Source: Shimia aestuarii
Lineage (GTDB): Bacteria; Pseudomonadota; Alphaproteobacteria; Rhodobacterales; Rhodobacteraceae
Direction: 5' to 3'
DNA: 64,000 nt
NCBI RefSeq assembly: GCF_022814865.1
Contig: NZ_JAKVRD010000002.1
Coordinates: 248,001-312,000 of the forward strand
The position numbers were made by a program, and so were the translations under genes. Of this stretch, positions 13,554 to 21,042 are shown piece after piece. The notes under the pieces were generated by a model. That model was not told the origin of the DNA and searched no databases. It saw only the letters and a list, made by a program, of their open reading frames with translations. Numbering within the stretch: position 1 is the stretch's first letter; every line of letters begins with the position of its first letter.

Positions 13554-15896
13554 TCATTCGCCGTAGGGGATCCAGATGTTCTTGACCTCGGTCGCGGCCT
13601 CGAGGAACGCGCGCGTGTGATCCTCGGACCAGTCCCGCGCTTTGGCATTGTTGACCCATGTGCGCTTGAGGTTGCCCGAGCTTTCGCGCTCGATCTCGGC
13701 GGAGAGGTCGCAGGACGAGAAGGACCACACAGCGTCGATATCAAGATGCCCGGCCATCGGCGTGGCAAGGTCTTTGTGTGCGCCTGTGAGGATGTTCACG
13801 ACACCGCCCGGCACGTCCGAGGTCTCCAGCACCTGATAGAAATCCGTCGCGGCAAGAGGGAACGGCTCGGACGCAGCGAGGATGATACGGTTGCCCATGG
13901 CGATGGCGGGGGCCATGACCGAGACGAGGCCGAGAAGCGGCGCCTCGTCAGGGCAGAGCGCGGCGATGACGCCCGTTGGTTCCTTTTGGGCGAGCGCGAC
14001 ACCGCGGATCGGGACGCCATGCACCTGCCCGTCGTATTTGTCGGCCCATGCAGCGGCCGTAAAGAGCCGGCGGATCGCGGTTTCGACCTCTTTGCCGCCA
14101 GAACGCCCGCCTGTCATGGCATTGATACGATGCGCGAATTCGCTTTCCCGGGCCGAGAGGTTTTCGGCGATATAGTAGAGCACTTGCGCGCGCTGATGGC
14201 CGGACATGCTGGACCAGGCCTTGGCGCCGCGCGCCGCTTCGACCGCGTTGCGCAGATCCTTGCGGTTGGCAAGCGGTGCTTGGCCCAAGAGATTGCCATT
14301 GCGGCCATAGACGGCACGGGAATAGCCGCCATCGGGCCGCGCCTGCTTGCCACCAATGTAGAGCTTCGTCGTGCGGTCGAGCGCATCCTCCGGTGCACCC
14401 TTGCCCTTGAACCCTTCGACCGGGGCCAAAGGCTTGGTGGTCTTGCCAATGGGTCGTGTATAGGCCGAAAGCCCCTCCCAGCCGCCTTCACGGCCATAAC
14501 CGCTCTCGCGCACACCGCCGAACCCGGCGGCGGCGTCGAACATGTTGCTCCCGTTGATCCAGACCACCCCGGCGGCCAGTTGCGGCGCGACTCCGAGCGC
14601 GAGGTTGATATTCTCGCTCCAGACAGACGCGGCAAGGCCATAGCGGGTATTGTTGGCAAGCGCGACGGCTTCAGCAGGCGTTCGGAAGGTCGCGGAGACG
14701 AGGACCGGGCCAAAAATCTCTTCCTGCATGAGCGGCGAGGAGGGGGAGAGGCCGGTGATGAGGGTCGGCGGGTAGAAATGCCCCTCGACCGGCATCTCGA
14801 CCTCGGCGCGGTAGGTCTCGCCTTCGCGACACCCCGCGACAAGTTCGGTCACTTTCGCCAGTTGCGTCGCGTCGATCACCGCGCCGACGTCGATGCATTT
14901 GTCGAGCGGGTTGCCGAGGCGCAGGCGGTCCATGCGGGCTTTGAGCTTGCGATGAAAGCGGTCCGCGATGCCTTCTTGCACGAGAAGGCGAGACCCGGCG
15001 CAGCAGACCTCGCCCTGATTGAACCAGATCGCATCGACAAGCCCCTCGATGGCCGAGTCGATATCAGCGTCGTCAAAGACGATGAAAGGGGATTTGCCGC
15101 CAAGCTCGAGCGTGAGCGCCTTGCCGGATCCGGCGGTCGCGGCGCGGATTTTGCGGCCAACCTCGGTCGACCCTGTGAAGGCGATCTTGTCGATCCCGTC
15201 ATGTGTGACGATCCTTTCGCCCACCACGCCATCGCCGGTGACGATATTGACAACGCCGGCGGGAAGGCCCGCCTGTTGGCAGATATCGGCAAAGAGAAGC
15301 GCGGTCAGGGAGGTTTGCTCGGCTGGTTTCAAGACGACCGTGTTGCCCATTGCGAGAGCCGGGGCGATCTTCCACGCGAGCATCAGGAGCGGGAAGTTCC
15401 ACGGGATGATCTGACCACAAACGCCAAGTGCCTCGCGCCCGGGCAATTCGCTCTCCATCAGCTCGGCCATGCCCGCGTGATAGTAGAAGTGACGTTGGGC
15501 AAGCGGCACGTCGATGTCACGGCTCTCGCGGATTGGTTTGCCGTTGTCGAGGGTCTCCAGAACGGCAAAGAGACGGGCATGTTTCTGCAAGAGACGGGCG
15601 ATGGCGTAGAGGTGCCGCGCGCGCCCGTGACCTCCGAGTCCCGCCCATTTGCGCTGTGCCTTACGGGCGGCGGTGACGGCGGCGTCCACGTCCTCTGCCG
15701 TCGCTTGCGAGAGTTTGGCCAGCGTTTCGCCATTGGCGGGGTTGAGGGAGGGGAAATCGTCTTTTGGCTCGGTCCAGCCGCCATTGATGAAATGGCCAAA
15801 CCGCGCGCCCTGATCGACGACCCAGGCCAGAGCATCGCCCGCGCTTTCGGGGGCCGGGCCGTAGTCCATGGATTGGAAAATATCTTTGACGGTCAT
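13554..15896 (-). CDS. ALDH16-type double-domain aldehyde dehydrogenase
   Basis: This 780-aa protein oxidises an aldehyde with NAD+. The first domain (about 1-480) is a complete ALDH with ELGGKSP (Glu264) and GEVCCAGSR (catalytic Cys298). The second domain (about 500-780) repeats the N-terminal ALDH fold but lacks the Glu and Cys active-site blocks and stops early. That is the architecture of the ALDH16 family, in which bacterial members keep the active Cys in domain 1. It lies 20 bp downstream of deoC, whose product acetaldehyde is a plausible substrate. It converges with the M16 pair at a 6-bp gap. Confidence 0.88.
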   Translation of the reverse strand: MTVKDIFQSMDYGPAPESAGDALAWVVDQGARFGHFINGGWTEPKDDFPSLNPANGETLAKLSQATAEDVDAAVTAARKAQRKWAGLGGHGRARHLYAIARLLQKHARLFAVLETLDNGKPIRESRDIDVPLAQRHFYYHAGMAELMESELPGREALGVCGQIIPWNFPLLMLAWKIAPALAMGNTVVLKPAEQTSLTALLFADICQQAGLPAGVVNIVTGDGVVGERIVTHDGIDKIAFTGSTEVGRKIRAATAGSGKALTLELGGKSPFIVFDDADIDSAIEGLVDAIWFNQGEVCCAGSRLLVQEGIADRFHRKLKARMDRLRLGNPLDKCIDVGAVIDATQLAKVTELVAGCREGETYRAEVEMPVEGHFYPPTLITGLSPSSPLMQEEIFGPVLVSATFRTPAEAVALANNTRYGLAASVWSENINLALGVAPQLAAGVVWINGSNMFDAAAGFGGVRESGYGREGGWEGLSAYTRPIGKTTKPLAPVEGFKGKGAPEDALDRTTKLYIGGKQARPDGGYSRAVYGRNGNLLGQAPLANRKDLRNAVEAARGAKAWSSMSGHQRAQVLYYIAENLSARESEFAHRINAMTGGRSGGKEVETAIRRLFTAAAWADKYDGQVHGVPIRGVALAQKEPTGVIAALCPDEAPLLGLVSVMAPAIAMGNRIILAASEPFPLAATDFYQVLETSDVPGGVVNILTGAHKDLATPMAGHLDIDAVWSFSSCDLSAEIERESSGNLKRTWVNNAKARDWSEDHTRAFLEAATEVKNIWIPYGE

Positions 15897-15916
15897 GGTC
15901 TTGTCTCCGGTCGCCG

Positions 15917-16897
15917 TTACCCTATCGGGTGGCGATAGCTGGCCGAGTAGTGGCCGGTGACGTGGTGTTCGAGTTGGCGTTCGATGTCGCCGAGAAGCGA
16001 GGACGCGCCGAAGCGGAACAGGTCCGGCTGAAGCCAGCGGTGGCCCAGCTCTTCCTTGATGAGCGACAGGTAGATGAGTGCGTCCTTAGCCTTGGATATC
16101 CCGCCTGCCGGTTTGTAGCCAACGCGGTGCCCGGTGTGTTCGTAGTAGTCGCGGATGGCGCGGATCATCACGAGCGAGACGGGCAGCGTCGCGTTGACGC
16201 TTTCCTTGCCGGTCGAGGTCTTGATGAAATCCGCCCCGGCCATCATGCAGACCAGCGAGGCGCGCGCGACGTTGCGCAGGGAGCCAAGCTCGCCCGTGGC
16301 GAGGATGGCCTTCACATGGGCATCGCCACAGGCCGCGCGGAAGGCGCACATCTCGTCATAAAGCGCCTGCCAGTCGCCGGTGAGGACATGGCGGCGAGAG
16401 ATAACGATGTCGATCTCGGCGGCGCCGGCCTCGACGCTGGCCTCGATCTCGGAAAGGCGGAGGTTGAAGGGAGAAAGCCCGGCGGGAAACCCTGTCGAAA
16501 CGGCGGCAACTGGGATGCCAGAGCCATGCAGCGCGGCGACGGCCGGGGCGATCATCTCGTGATAGACACAGACCGCGCCGACGGTGAGCCCTTCCATGCC
16601 GAGCGCGGCGAGGAGGTCGGGGCGCACGGGTTGGCGGGCCTTGGCAGATAGGCGCGCGACGCGCCCGGGTGTGTCATCCCCGGACAGAGTTGTGAGGTCG
16701 ATGCAGCTTATCGCCTTGCAGAGCCATGCGGCCTGATACTCTTTCTTGACCGAGCGGCGGCCCGGCAGGGTCGCGACGCGGCGCTCGATGGCGGAGGTAT
16801 TGGCCTGCGCACGGCGCACCCAGTCGAGATCGAGCGGCATGCCCCCATTGCGCGTCTCGAGCGTTTGGGGGAGCTGATGAATGGTGTCGGAAAGCAT
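15917..16897 (-). CDS. deoC: Deoxyribose-phosphate aldolase
   Basis: DeoC splits 2-deoxyribose-5-phosphate into glyceraldehyde-3-phosphate and acetaldehyde. The 326-aa protein is of the longer DeoC type, with the Schiff-base lysine in FIKTSTGK (Lys226), the STGFPAG block and the VGYKPAGGI block with the second lysine. The ATG at 16897 (MLSDTIHQ) has an AGGGGAC upstream; an earlier in-frame start at 16951 has none. It is first in a deoC-aldehyde dehydrogenase unit. No deoA or deoD is visible here. Confidence 0.95.
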   Translation of the reverse strand: MLSDTIHQLPQTLETRNGGMPLDLDWVRRAQANTSAIERRVATLPGRRSVKKEYQAAWLCKAISCIDLTTLSGDDTPGRVARLSAKARQPVRPDLLAALGMEGLTVGAVCVYHEMIAPAVAALHGSGIPVAAVSTGFPAGLSPFNLRLSEIEASVEAGAAEIDIVISRRHVLTGDWQALYDEMCAFRAACGDAHVKAILATGELGSLRNVARASLVCMMAGADFIKTSTGKESVNATLPVSLVMIRAIRDYYEHTGHRVGYKPAGGISKAKDALIYLSLIKEELGHRWLQPDLFRFGASSLLGDIERQLEHHVTGHYSASYRHPIG

Positions 16898-16990
16898 GGT
16901 GTCCCCTGTTCGGATCGCCGTCAGGGTGTCATGCCATGCGGGGCTTGGCAAGATTGGTCAGGGCCCGTGCAACGCCGGGTAAAGCTCGGA

Positions 16991-18736
16991 TCAGGCGGCG
17001 TTTTCGTTCGGGGTCAGGGCCACCATTGCATCATATTGCGAAAGGAAGACCCGGCCCGTCAGATCATTGATGAAATGGCTGCGCTGGAGGCGATCCATGA
17101 CCGGGCCTTTGACCTCGGAGAGGTGCAGCGTGATGCCGATTTCGTGCAAGCGGCGGTTGGCTTCTTCGAGGCTTTCAAGAGCGCTCATGTCGATCTCGTT
17201 CACGGCGGAGCACATCAGAACCACATGGCGTATGTCGTTGTCTCCGACGACCCGGTCATAGAGGTAATCCTCGAGATAACGGGCATTGGCGAAATAGAGG
17301 CTTTCGTCGATGCGCAGGGTCACAAGCGATGGGTCGGTCTGCACGTCGTGGCGCAGGATGTTGCGGAAATGCTGGGTGCCGGGGACGAGGCCGACTTCGG
17401 CCACGTGGGGGCGGGAGGTCTTGTAGAGAAAGAGGCCGATGGAGATCAGCACACCTGCGGACACCCCGACCTCGACGCCGAAGCCGAGGGTCAGAAGGAT
17501 CGTGGCGGCGACGGCGGAGAAGTCGACGCGCGAATAGTGCCAGGTGCGCTTGAGGATCGAGAAGTCGACGAGGCTCAGGACGGCGACGATGATCGTGGCG
17601 GCGAGGGTGGCCTTGGGCAGGAAGAAGAGAAGCGGCGTCAGCAGAAGCGCGGCTAGCGCGATGCCGACAGCGGTAAAGGCTCCGGCGGCGGGGGTTTCGG
17701 CCCCGGCGTCGAAGTTCACGACCGAGCGGGCAAAACCGCCTGTCACCGGATAACCCCCTGAAATTGCTGCGGCAATGTTGGCGGTGCCGAGGCCGACGAG
17801 TTCCTGATCGGGGATGATGCGCTGGCGCTTCTTGGCGGCGAGCGTTTGTGCGACGGAGACGGATTCGACAAAGCCGATGATCGAGATCAGCAGCGCGGAG
17901 ACGAAAAGGGAGGACCAGATTTCGCCGGAAAAGCTCGGCAGGGAAAGCGGCGGCAGGCCCATCGGCACCTCGCCAACGATGCGGACGCCGTGGTTTTGGA
18001 GGCCAAAGAGCCATGTGACGAGGGTTGTCACGGCGACGGCGCCAACGGGGCCTGCCTTGGCGAGGATATCGGCCATGCGGGGCTTGAGGCCAGCGTCGAG
18101 CAGGAGCGGCTTGAGCCCCTTGCGCACCCAGAACAGGAAGCCCGTCGCCATGATGCCGATCACCAGCGTGATGAGGTTGGTTTCCGGCAGGTGGGCAAGG
18201 ATCGAGCCAAGCAGAGTTGGTAGGTTGTGGCCATGCGCATCGACACCGAGGAGGTGCTTCAACTGGGACGTGGCGATGAGGACACCAGAGGCCGTGATGA
18301 ACCCGGCGATCACCGGGTGCGAGAGGAAATTCGCAATGAAACCAAGGCGAAAGACCCCCATGAGTGTGAGCATCAGGCCGGAGATAAAGGCCAGCGTGAT
18401 GGCGGCGGCGGCGTATTCGGCGGTGCCTTGGAGGGCGAGGTTGCCGACGGCGGCGGCGGTCATCAGGGAGACCACGGCGACCGGCCCGACGGCCAGCGCG
18501 CGGGACGTGCCGAAGACGGCGTAGGCGACGAGCGGCAGGATCGAGGCATAGAGGCCCATCTCGGGCGGGAGGCCGGCGAGGAGGGCGTAGGCGAGGGACT
18601 GCGGAATGAGCATGATCGTGACGATGACGGCGGCCACGAGATCGGAAGTCAGCGTGTCGCGGTCGTAGCTCTTGCCCCATTGCAGGATCGGCAGGTTGCG
18701 CTCGAGCGTGGCACGGGTCGGTCTGGGCAGGCGCAT
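16991..18736 (-). CDS. SulP family anion transporter with STAS domain
   Basis: This 581-aa inner-membrane protein has the SulP signature region (QSLAYALLAGLPPEMGLYAS), about 10-12 hydrophobic segments, and a C-terminal cytoplasmic STAS domain (from about residue 440, with VVLMCSAVNEIDMSALESLEE). SulP proteins move sulfate, bicarbonate or related anions. The ATG at 18736 has AAAGGACCAAGAG upstream. The promoter carries a BigR/SqrR-like operator and the neighbours are sulfide genes. A sulfur oxyanion substrate is therefore likely, but direction and specificity are inferred. Confidence 0.9.
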   Translation of the reverse strand: MRLPRPTRATLERNLPILQWGKSYDRDTLTSDLVAAVIVTIMLIPQSLAYALLAGLPPEMGLYASILPLVAYAVFGTSRALAVGPVAVVSLMTAAAVGNLALQGTAEYAAAAITLAFISGLMLTLMGVFRLGFIANFLSHPVIAGFITASGVLIATSQLKHLLGVDAHGHNLPTLLGSILAHLPETNLITLVIGIMATGFLFWVRKGLKPLLLDAGLKPRMADILAKAGPVGAVAVTTLVTWLFGLQNHGVRIVGEVPMGLPPLSLPSFSGEIWSSLFVSALLISIIGFVESVSVAQTLAAKKRQRIIPDQELVGLGTANIAAAISGGYPVTGGFARSVVNFDAGAETPAAGAFTAVGIALAALLLTPLLFFLPKATLAATIIVAVLSLVDFSILKRTWHYSRVDFSAVAATILLTLGFGVEVGVSAGVLISIGLFLYKTSRPHVAEVGLVPGTQHFRNILRHDVQTDPSLVTLRIDESLYFANARYLEDYLYDRVVGDNDIRHVVLMCSAVNEIDMSALESLEEANRRLHEIGITLHLSEVKGPVMDRLQRSHFINDLTGRVFLSQYDAMVALTPNENAA

Positions 18737-18763: not shown

Positions 18764-18791
18764 CATATATTCAAACTGGTGAATAAGTGAA
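18764..18791 (-). promoter_or_regulatory. sulP promoter with BigR/SqrR-type operator
   Basis: On the minus strand a TTCACT -35 (18786-18791) and a TATATG -10 (18764-18769) are separated by 16 bp. A perfect ATTC-N8-GAAT inverted repeat occupies 18769-18784, covering the spacer and the edge of the -10. ATTC-N8-GAAT is the recognition pattern known for the persulfide-sensing ArsR-family repressors SqrR/BigR. Its position suits repression that is lifted by sulfide. Confidence 0.65.
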
Positions 18792-19063: not shown

Positions 19064-20737
19064 TCAGCTTGCCGAGATCTTTTCGGGTTTGGCCATCCAT
19101 TCCTTGCCGCGCAACATCGCCTTCCAATAGACGGGCGGCAGGATCTGTTCCTTGAGGATCCAAGCGGCGCGGGTCGGTTTGGTGCCGTCGATCATCCACT
19201 TCGGCAGGGTCGGCAGCAGCACGCCACCATAGCCGAATTCCGCTAGAAGTATCTTGCCGCGTTCGACGGTCAGCGGGCAGGAGCCGTAGCCGTTGTAGAT
19301 CGCGGTGGGCGATTTTCCGTCGATATCATCGACGAGGTTTTCGGCCACGATCGGCGCCTGCATCCGCGCGGCGGCGGCGGTCTTGGCGTTGGGGGCGTTC
19401 ATCACGTCCCCGAGCGACCAGATATTGTCATACTCTGCATGGCGCAGTGTCGCCTGATCCACATCGACCCAGCCCGCGGCATCGGCCAAGGGCGAGACGC
19501 GGATGAAGTCCGGCGCGGTCTGTGGCGGGGTGACGTGCATCATGTCGAACTCGGTCATGAGGGTTTCCGGCTCGGCATCGGGGCGGTTGATGGTGAAGGT
19601 CGCCGTCTTGGCGGACCCGTCCACGGCGGTCAGGTTGTGGAAGTAGTTCACCGTCGCGCCGTAGCGGTCGATGTATTTCTCGAGGGCGGGCACGTAGTCC
19701 TTCACCCCGAAGAGGACGCCGCCTGCGTTCATGAATTGCACATCGACAGAGCCGAGGCGGCCCATGCGCTCCCAGTTGTTGGCGGAGAGGTAGAGCGCCT
19801 TTTGCGGGGCACCGGCGCATTTGATCGGCATGGGCGGCTGGGTAAAGAGGGCGCGCCCGCCTTTGAAGCCGCGCACCAGTTCCCAAGTGTAGGGGGCGAG
19901 GTCATAGCGGTAGTTCGAGGTCACGCCGTTCTTGCCGAGCGTTTCGACGAGGCCCTCGACGGCGCCCCAGTCGAGCTTCAGCCCCGGGCAGACGACGAGG
20001 CGTTTGTATTTCACCACGCGGCAGCCATCGAGGACGACGGCGTTGTCCTTGGGTTCAAACGCGGCGACGGCGGATTTGAGCCAATGCACCCCTTTGGGGA
20101 TCAGAGAGCCCATGGTCTTCGCGGTGGTTTCGGCGTCGAAGATGCCGCCGCCGACCATGGTCCAGCCGGGTTGGTAGTAATGCGTGCCTGCCGGGTCGAT
20201 CACGGCGATCTCGAGGCCCGAGCGGCGCGCCTTGAGCGAAGAGGCCACGGCAATGCCCGCCGCGCCACCGCCAACGATCACCACATCATAGGACGCATCG
20301 CCCGTATCGGTCGGGGTCTTGCCGCCATTGACGATGCGGCGCACGACGCCCGCCATGTCATAGCCTGCGGATTTGGTCGCGGCGAGGATGTCGGCGGTCG
20401 GTGTGTCGGCGGCCTTGGAGAGCGACCAGAGCGTCGCGCAGCGCGTGCCGGTGCGGCAATAGGCGAGGACAGGACCGGGAAGCTCCATCAGGGCGGTGCC
20501 GAAATCGGCGGCATCTGCGTCGGTGACCTTGCCGGAGACGACAGGCAGGTAGCGACAGGTCAGCCCTTCTTCGCGGGCGACGCGCTCGATCTCGTCAAAG
20601 GCGGGTTGGTCGGCGCCTTCGCCATCGGGGCGGTTACAGATGATGGCACGAAAGCCCTTTGCGGCGATGGTGCGCACGTCCTCGGCGGTAATCTGCGGCG
20701 CGACCGAGATTTGGTCGGTGATCTTCTTGGCGTCCAT
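19064..20737 (-). CDS. DUF442 sulfurtransferase-like / type II sulfide:quinone oxidoreductase fusion
   Basis: This 557-aa protein has an N-terminal DUF442 domain (about 1-115) with a CRTGTR loop (94-99), a six-residue rhodanese-like active site. A linker leads to an FAD-dependent oxidoreductase (about 150-557) with GGGAAG at 156-161. The blocks PIKCAGAPQK (Cys307) and GYGSCPL (Cys487) match the two redox cysteines of type II sulfide:quinone oxidoreductases, the group that includes mitochondrial SQOR. The likely role is membrane-associated oxidation of H2S to persulfide with electrons to quinone, with the DUF442 part moving or releasing sulfane sulfur. The ATG at 20737 begins the DUF442 domain; the upstream in-frame extension is non-homologous. 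Confidence 0.9.
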   Translation of the reverse strand: MDAKKITDQISVAPQITAEDVRTIAAKGFRAIICNRPDGEGADQPAFDEIERVAREEGLTCRYLPVVSGKVTDADAADFGTALMELPGPVLAYCRTGTRCATLWSLSKAADTPTADILAATKSAGYDMAGVVRRIVNGGKTPTDTGDASYDVVIVGGGAAGIAVASSLKARRSGLEIAVIDPAGTHYYQPGWTMVGGGIFDAETTAKTMGSLIPKGVHWLKSAVAAFEPKDNAVVLDGCRVVKYKRLVVCPGLKLDWGAVEGLVETLGKNGVTSNYRYDLAPYTWELVRGFKGGRALFTQPPMPIKCAGAPQKALYLSANNWERMGRLGSVDVQFMNAGGVLFGVKDYVPALEKYIDRYGATVNYFHNLTAVDGSAKTATFTINRPDAEPETLMTEFDMMHVTPPQTAPDFIRVSPLADAAGWVDVDQATLRHAEYDNIWSLGDVMNAPNAKTAAAARMQAPIVAENLVDDIDGKSPTAIYNGYGSCPLTVERGKILLAEFGYGGVLLPTLPKWMIDGTKPTRAAWILKEQILPPVYWKAMLRGKEWMAKPEKISAS

Positions 20738-20766: not shown

Positions 20767-20979
20767 TCAGCGGCGGCAGGTCGAGAGGCCGAGCACCCGG
20801 TAGAGCGGGCAGAACTTGAAGGCCGATGTCCCCGCAAGGACGAGGCCGACGAGGGCGAGGCCATATTTTATCATATCGTTTTGCCACAAGGCAGCCTCAA
20901 AGGCGAAGGGCAGGATGATGAGCGCCGCGCCGAGGATCAGGCGGATGAGGCGGTCGAGATTGCCGACATTGTGGGTCAT
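20767..20979 (-). CDS. DUF2892 small membrane protein
   Basis: This 70-aa protein starts [13 protein letters not shown], the DUF2892 signature. It has two hydrophobic segments and the C-terminal CPLYRVLG motif with a conserved Cys. DUF2892 domains occur with rhodanese and sulfide-oxidation genes and as the tail of some rhodaneses. The start at 20979 has a GGAGCC upstream; the longer frame is not conserved-looking. It lies 29 bp ahead of the DUF442-SQR gene in one transcription unit. Confidence 0.88.
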
Positions 20980-21019: not shown

Positions 21020-21042
21020 TTCATATATTCAATATCGCGCAT
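21020..21042 (-). promoter_or_regulatory. Candidate DUF2892-SQR promoter/operator
   Basis: A 13-bp block TTCATATATTCAA (plus strand 21020-21032) is identical to 18762-18774 in the sulP promoter and includes the TATATG -10 on the minus strand. The ATTC at 21027-21030 is followed after 8 bp by GCAT, one mismatch from the ATTC-N8-GAAT operator. A -35 element is not convincing. Confidence 0.5.

Follow-up and report, generated by a model that had tools for sequence, protein, structure and literature searches.

A SqrR/BigR-type operator inside the predicted sulP promoter of Shimia aestuarii points to persulfide control of a SulP transporter beside a sulfide-oxidase operon

How heterotrophic marine bacteria that detoxify sulfide dispose of sulfite is, to our knowledge, not settled. 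The default annotation of SulP proteins is usually sulfate permease, and the sulfite exporter of the bigR operon is of the TauE type. In that operon, the exporter is encoded together with a persulfide-type repressor of the ArsR family and a BLH-type sulfur transferase/dioxygenase (PMC5823870). The site deduced for SqrR of R. capsulatus is ATTC-N8-GAAT (PMC9774250). In Methylophaga thiooxydans, sulP is found with sqr (sqrB) and pdo in the mto clusters and is annotated as a sulfate/sulfite permease; the SulP protein was higher on DMS and the transcript higher on methanol, so that the two data sets disagree (PMC6548844). SulP has also been proposed as a sulfate exporter in sulfur oxidisers (PMC9796809, PMC10952691). 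Together with the Methylophaga clusters, these proposals correct the original prediction for the present locus, which had considered export an assignment not generally made for SulP. The export idea is already known for sulfate, and no statement on the control of sulP by a persulfide-sensing repressor was found in the literature covered, which leaves out most subscription papers.

The sulP gene studied here lies at 16991-18736 on the minus strand of a 64,000-nt stretch of S. aestuarii DNA (the window) and encodes, according to Pfam and TIGRFAM, a SulP/SLC26 anion transporter of 581 amino acids with a STAS domain. A SqrR/BigR-type operator, ATTC-ACCAGTTT-GAAT, is located on the same strand at 18769-18784, a palindrome that reads ATTCAAACTGGTGAAT on the plus strand; the assignment is based on its exact match and its retention in relatives. 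The motif scan and the sequence bear out the original prediction on both the exact ATTC-N8-GAAT at this position and its placement in the spacer of the sulP promoter. On the sulP strand, the layout is TTCACT-T-ATTC-ACCAGTTT-GAA-TATATG, with the predicted -35 hexamer TTCACT at 18791-18786 (18786-18791 in window order, minus strand), assigned from the sequence, and the predicted -10 hexamer TATATG at 18769-18764 (18764-18769, minus strand), assigned from the sequence and an alignment. The 16-nt spacer consists of a T followed by ATTC-ACCAGTTT-GAA and is wholly filled by the palindrome, the T of GAAT being base 1 of the -10 hexamer. Such an overlap with a promoter, here a predicted one, is expected of a repressor site. 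Aligned relatives have TT(T/C)AC(T/A)-like hexamers where the -35 sits, and their -10 is mostly TATATA. Because the longest sulP ORF would start at ATG 18766, inside the -10 hexamer, the working start is very likely ATG 18736, behind AAGGA. Downstream on the same strand, deoC-like and aldehyde dehydrogenase genes (13554-16951) follow sulP at about 40-90 nt, depending on the start.

Along the minus strand, sulP is preceded by a gene for a YgaP-like transmembrane protein of the DUF2892 type (YgaP-TM, 20767-20979; PF11127, 1.5e-21), the first gene of its operon, then by a fusion of a BLH phosphatase-like sulfurtransferase (TIGR01244) with a type III sulfide:quinone reductase-like protein (BLH-SQR, 19064-20737; Pfam and NCBIfam), and then by 327 nt to which no gene is assigned. 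The fusion protein matches PF04273 at 7.9e-27 and scores 131.7 bits against TIGR01244, over the cut-off, and 187.7 bits against NF049943, below the cut-off of 525. The original prediction had placed sulP next to a sulfide oxidase, which is confirmed, and a matching site with one mismatch, ATGC-GCGATATT-GAAT, is found ahead of the YgaP-TM/BLH-SQR operon at 21027-21042 on the minus strand. The 3' flank of this second operator, GAATATATGAA, is identical to that of the sulP site, and its -35, TCCATG, is weak. Because one-mismatch sites are common by chance, the second operator draws its weight from relatives: among 24 relatives in which nothing crowds the region upstream of BLH-SQR, 15 have an exact site within 320 nt (0-1 at other gaps), and where the gene directly follows another ORF there is none in 39 cases, including the window's own copy behind YgaP-TM. 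A cruder count, over the 200 nt upstream of ORFs that do not follow another, gave sites for BLH/SQR (5/15), PmpA-like (1/6) and ArsR (2/9) genes and none for PDO (0/18), CRP (0/8), YgaP-TM (0/3) or PmpB-like (0/2) genes; all other ORFs gave 10/173, of which at least eight are sites of sulP, SQR or ArsR genes that were reached from a divergently oriented ORF.

The match at sulP is by itself at chance level and proves nothing; it is its conservation that lets us treat the site as real. The bare motif is expected 0.99 times per 64-kb window, and 68 of 100 shuffles contain at least one. In the 3.97-Mb genome, we found 30 exact copies, of which 29 were placed (14 inside and 15 between ORFs) and one, on contig C42, was left unplaced. 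One-mismatch sites in the window fall below expectation (11 against 20.5). To assess conservation, we sought SulP orthologues in 147 related genomes, which gave 83 further orthologue rows with identities from about 45% upwards. Of these, 80 loci in 78 genomes were retrieved together with as much as 5 kb of preceding sequence, making 81 with the window; G050 and G071 give two loci each, one of the latter (L128) being a broken copy. The three rows left aside were G045, truncated at the start of its contig, G113, whose gene is in two parts, and G092, at 45%. Genes were called by a simple script instead of a trained gene finder.

Of the 81 loci, 29 have an exact site no more than 120 nt from sulP. 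Dinucleotide shuffling gave a mean of 0.17 such loci and a maximum of 2, changing the gap to any other length from 0 to 20 gave 0-4, and replacing the half-site by another palindromic one while keeping the gap gave no more than 4. Among the 32 closest loci, that is, the window and the 31 best-scoring ones (L055-L085), 29 carry the motif ahead of sulP, 22-82 nt before the aligned start, and in the three exceptions (L066, L080 and L083) sulP lies 9-50 nt behind the sulfide:quinone reductase (BLH-SQR) gene. The sulP gene is seemingly the first of its transcription unit in 45 of the 81 loci, 28 with the site and 17 without, and all 17 fall outside the 32 closest. The scan of relatives suggested in the original prediction found the motif conserved in the closest relatives, and its absence ahead of orthologues, which was to count against the operator, is seen in farther ones. 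In the 28 aligned leader sites, the eight inner bases differ, and the spacing of a TT(T/C)AC(T/A)-like -35 and of TATAT is constant; the invariance of ATTC and GAAT follows from how these sites were selected. A second set from named genomes, of the same family and not identical with the first, comprised 80 loci, six of which were dropped as duplicates sharing the same 100 nt upstream; among the remaining 74, which may still include near-identical species, 14 have the site near the sulP start, against 0-4 at other gaps. The genera with the site include Maliponia, Pelagimonas, Salipiger, Puniceibacterium and Primorskyibacter. In twenty SulP paralogues, the stretch from 400 nt before the start to 60 nt beyond it contained no exact site, and the preceding 4-5 kb contained no sulfide genes. 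The conservation thus exceeds chance and is confined to Shimia and near genera, and the orthologue counts represent related lineages, not independent events. One locus on a contig labelled Flavobacteriia (L271, JAHBAN010000063.1) has a 77% identical sulP with the operator and is probably from a mislabelled or contaminated bin.

When the 155 loci of both sets were pooled, the presence of an own site was found to depend on what precedes sulP. When less than 90 nt separates sulP from the end of a preceding BLH/SQR or PDO gene, none of 70 loci has a site; at 90-139 nt one of nine does, and at 140 nt or more 18 of 25 do. Where none of these genes was seen upstream, 24 of 51 loci have one. Overall, sulP follows BLH/SQR/PDO genes closely in 70 loci, has its own site in 43 and has neither in 42, so that it is either behind sulfide genes or under its own operator in 113 of 155. 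In wider relatives, the genes ahead of sulP are, in varying completeness, those for a CRP/Fnr-type regulator, YgaP-TM, two YeeE/YedE-like halves, an MBL-fold protein that is close to the dioxygenase part of Blh, and BLH or BLH-SQR; in several of these relatives a SqrR-type ArsR gene stands beside the set. In other genomes, sulP comes after PDO and BLH/SQR genes, and these are often preceded by PmpA/PmpB-like genes. Within the genus, 13 of 24 relatives keep sulP and the operator and lack the BLH-SQR fusion (at a cut-off of E 1e-150), and SulP therefore probably serves something downstream of persulfide in general. A CRP/Fnr-type regulator and PDO are both found upstream of sulP in 13 of the 74 named loci (for example L270, L295, L305 and L323), none of which has a SqrR-type site near sulP; the operon of these 13 loci may be under different control.

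Elsewhere in the genome, the operator accompanies other sulfur genes. The extended form ATTC-N8-GAATATA occurs exactly four times: ahead of sulP; on contig C5, 54 nt from a second YgaP-like gene (L146:5562-5789), with the extended side facing away from that gene; in the soxA-soxB gap on C8; and on C12 ahead of a gene of the TsoY family. The sox cluster (L135:3047-12672 on C8), which has soxR at its head and in which SoxB, SoxX, SoxC and SoxZ were confirmed by model, has one exact site 83 nt upstream of soxX and another in the gap from soxA to soxB, ahead of soxB. Other exact sites precede genes for a rhodanese, a SoxH-like metallohydrolase, and another metallohydrolase with a thioredoxin-like gene; further intergenic ones stand by genes with no known sulfur link, such as an aminotransferase gene and a rubrerythrin/VIT gene. 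The small rhodanese gene (L139:16700-17059 on C7) is preceded at 72 nt by its exact site. Of 22 rhodanese matches, the 11 with at least 44% identity all share the site, and the 11 with 43% or lower all lack it. A rhodanese is also a SqrR target in R. capsulatus (PMC9995734). The TsoY-family gene (NF047644; L144:4810-6036, equal to C12:66812-68035) has an exact site 45 nt ahead, and its orthologues have one within 200 nt in 21 of 25 cases, often two, against 0-2 at other gaps. The pattern of sites points to a role of this gene in the persulfide response. The literature searched gave no known function for the TsoY family, and a listing of selenoproteins, in its available part, names TsoY without a function.

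The genome encodes two ArsR proteins of the SqrR/BigR type that have both sensor cysteines, an orphan on contig C23 (G000:C23:23808-24206) and the SoxR of the sox cluster on C8. The orphan was recognised by both cysteines and a SqrR-like recognition helix; aligned with SqrR, it pairs ILCHL with IMCYL and LFCG with QFCS, and RQAAVSQ is common to both. The recognition helix of SqrR is shared by the orphan and SoxR alike. Because neither protein reaches the cut-off of the BigR equivalog NF040642 (107.7 bits for the orphan and 93.3 for SoxR, against 155), the name goes no further than "SqrR/BigR-type". The BigR/SqrR-type operator originally predicted is supported as a SqrR-type site, and the genome has a regulator of the right kind, to which the BigR label in the strict sense does not apply. 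Close relatives of the orphan, taken as matches of 143.8 bits or more (the next lower one has 128.6), are found in 37 genomes; G008 is among them at 65% identity, and G030 (67%) and G052 (65%), with lower scores, are not counted. Such a regulator is present for 26 of the 28 relatives' loci with a sulP site and for 10 of the 52 without, an association whose Fisher value ignores shared ancestry and is not to be taken as a probability. In five of these 10 loci sulP lies behind BLH-SQR, and in the other five (G029, G051, G055, G062 and G068) it is otherwise placed and still has no exact site, which counts against the proposed control.

It could be argued that the palindrome is a chance match, as one is expected per window and the 30 genomic copies are no excess over that rate. 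This reading, which we regard as vanishingly improbable, is contradicted by the conservation among orthologues, by the gap, shuffle and paralogue controls, and by the sites at the BLH-SQR, TsoY and rhodanese genes. A different possibility is that the operator is real and that SoxR acts on it, which would place sulP in the Sox regulon and make it answer to thiosulfate or sulfane sulfur. Both cysteines are present in SoxR, its score against R. capsulatus SqrR is slightly higher than that of the orphan (128.9 against 114.3 bits), and exact sites lie ahead of soxX and soxB in its own cluster; moreover, G020 and G021, the two site-bearing exceptions above, show only a SoxR-like match. However, these two assemblies are incomplete (93% and 88%), and in seven site-bearing genomes (G004, G010, G014, G015, G017, G022 and G024) the orphan type is the only match at E 1e-12 or better, which makes SoxR less likely as the sole regulator. 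We consider control by SoxR quite improbable. Because the orphan type goes with the sulP site in 26 of 28 loci and is the sole match in those seven genomes, the orphan SqrR/BigR-type ArsR is most likely the acting repressor, with crosstalk from SoxR possible.

What SulP carries, and in which direction, has to be judged from the protein and its neighbours. PF00916 (6.1e-105) and PF01740 (1e-16) are its only Pfam matches, and it scores 462.2 bits against TIGR00815, "sulfate permease" (cut-off 380.45). The best sequence match among PDB entries is AtSULTR4;1 at 320.1 bits, an H+/sulfate symporter. Among 138 SulP orthologues, the residues corresponding to its Gln112, Glu347 and Arg393 never vary and that corresponding to Tyr116 is kept in 137, with one gap. 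These features fit import coupled to H+ and under genuine persulfide control, the cargo being sulfate, bicarbonate or another anion of this kind that would be useful in sulfide oxidation. The conserved proton-symport residues fit uptake as well as efflux, however, and a need for sulfate uptake under sulfide would be hard to explain, least of all in seawater. The scores against the bicarbonate transporter BicA (NF050096; 113.7 bits, cut-off 880) and the C4-dicarboxylate transporter DauA (177.1 bits, equivalog cut-off 614) are far too low for either assignment. Import is also disfavoured by two loci in which a TauE/SafE gene takes a corresponding place: in G123 (L233), the genes for ArsR, YgaP-TM, PmpA, PmpB and PDO are followed by TauE/SafE where sulP would stand, and in G121 (L236) TauE lies between ArsR and BLH-SQR. 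We therefore judge import unlikely. SulP is itself no member of the TauE/SafE family, as PF01925 is not matched, although it may work like TauE. In a search with one TauE protein as the query, by which other TauE subfamilies may be missed, four of the 147 genomes contained this subfamily, at five places in total, and each place had PDO or BLH-SQR genes no more than 1.1 kb away. Three of these genomes have no SulP match above 31% identity (none in G123, 26% in G101 and 31% in G128), and in G121 the TauE and SulP genes are at separate loci. A TauE of that subfamily is absent from 18 of 20 fetched PDO or BLH-SQR loci without an adjoining sulP; one of the 20 (L234) has no labelled genes, and the absence of sulP and TauE beside SQR there is taken from search coordinates. 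With five places, a small sample, and two of 20 sulP-less loci, TauE of this subfamily does not look like a general substitute for SulP.

If SulP is an exporter, its cargo might be sulfate or thiosulfate instead of sulfite. Thiosulfate can form from sulfite and persulfide, and the pocket of SulP is SULTR-like. Sulfate export by SulP also has the earlier proposals in sulfur oxidisers on its side (PMC9796809, PMC10952691). Against this, sulfite is the cytoplasmic product of persulfide dioxygenase, and a few loci have in a like place TauE/SafE, which Pfam annotates as a sulfite exporter. Seawater contains about 28 mM sulfate, and export against it appears unlikely. Ser392, a sulfate ligand in AtSULTR4;1, is replaced by Ala in 99 of 138 orthologues and kept as Ser in 38, and the Ser390 position is Gly in all 138. 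Sulfate or thiosulfate as the exported anion is, in our assessment, rather unlikely. In favour of sulfite, the genome encodes the SoxC sulfite dehydrogenase. The dioxygenase genes of this genome lie elsewhere, away from BLH-SQR. The PDO locus (C3:86111; L228) has no exact operator, and its one-mismatch sites are inside ORFs only. Because of this, and because the PDO genes of R. capsulatus are reportedly not under SqrR (PMC9995734), SulP and PDO need not be induced together, a point against sulfite as the cargo.

The reading that we prefer is a sulP under persulfide control whose product exports an oxidised sulfur anion, sulfite being the likeliest, and we give this explanation as a whole a probability of about 0.6. 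The orphan persulfide-sensing repressor would bind the operator over the -35 and -10 elements and keep sulP off. Once sulfide is oxidised to persulfides, a sulfur bridge would form between the two conserved cysteines and the repressor would be released, so that sulP would be switched on together with the YgaP-TM/BLH-SQR operon, the TsoY-family gene and the rhodanese gene. SulP would then move an oxidised sulfur anion out of the cytoplasm; the cargo could be sulfite from persulfide dioxygenase, which would be passed to the periplasmic Sox sulfite dehydrogenase or escape into the medium. Symport being reversible, it could run outward with near-zero sulfite outside and seawater slightly more alkaline than the cytoplasm. 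The parts of this explanation differ in strength. Persulfide control of sulP is, from the conserved sites and the candidate regulator, highly probable, and the release of the repressor by persulfide is presumed by analogy with SqrR/BigR homologues. The gene context slightly favours export by SulP and makes sulfite as the main cargo a tentative choice, a little short of even odds. As a more speculative generalisation, in Rhodobacteraceae and some other Alphaproteobacteria a SULTR-like SulP may have taken over from TauE/SafE the role of dedicated sulfite exporter in the persulfide-dioxygenase pathway and may be kept in the persulfide regulon through a PDO/SQR operon or, in Shimia and near relatives, through its own SqrR-type operator. 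If so, this SulP clade would be an outward-working member of a family known for uptake, tied by a conserved persulfide-type operator to the task of sulfite disposal. The same operator would also bring the TsoY family into the persulfide response.

Compared with the SqrR regulon of R. capsulatus, the present system shares the operator, a two-cysteine repressor, and sqr and rhodanese targets (PMC9774250, PMC9995734). It differs in that sulP and the TsoY-family gene carry the operator and that the regulator is encoded on another contig, not beside its targets; sulP may nonetheless be on the R. capsulatus target list. With the bigR operon of Xylella fastidiosa and Agrobacterium tumefaciens, it has in common a persulfide-type ArsR and a BLH-type protein (PMC5823870), whereas here SulP stands in place of the sulfite exporter, BLH is fused to SQR, the dioxygenase genes are elsewhere and the BigR model cut-off is not reached. 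The mto clusters of Methylophaga thiooxydans resemble it in the grouping of sulP with sqrB and pdo, and their co-regulation is called unclear, with no repressor named in the text available (PMC6548844). AtSULTR4;1 (SLC26) is the closest solved relative by sequence and has the pocket residues common to SulP, but it is a vacuolar plant H+/sulfate symporter, from which the SulP orthologues depart at Ser390 and, in most cases, at Ser392.
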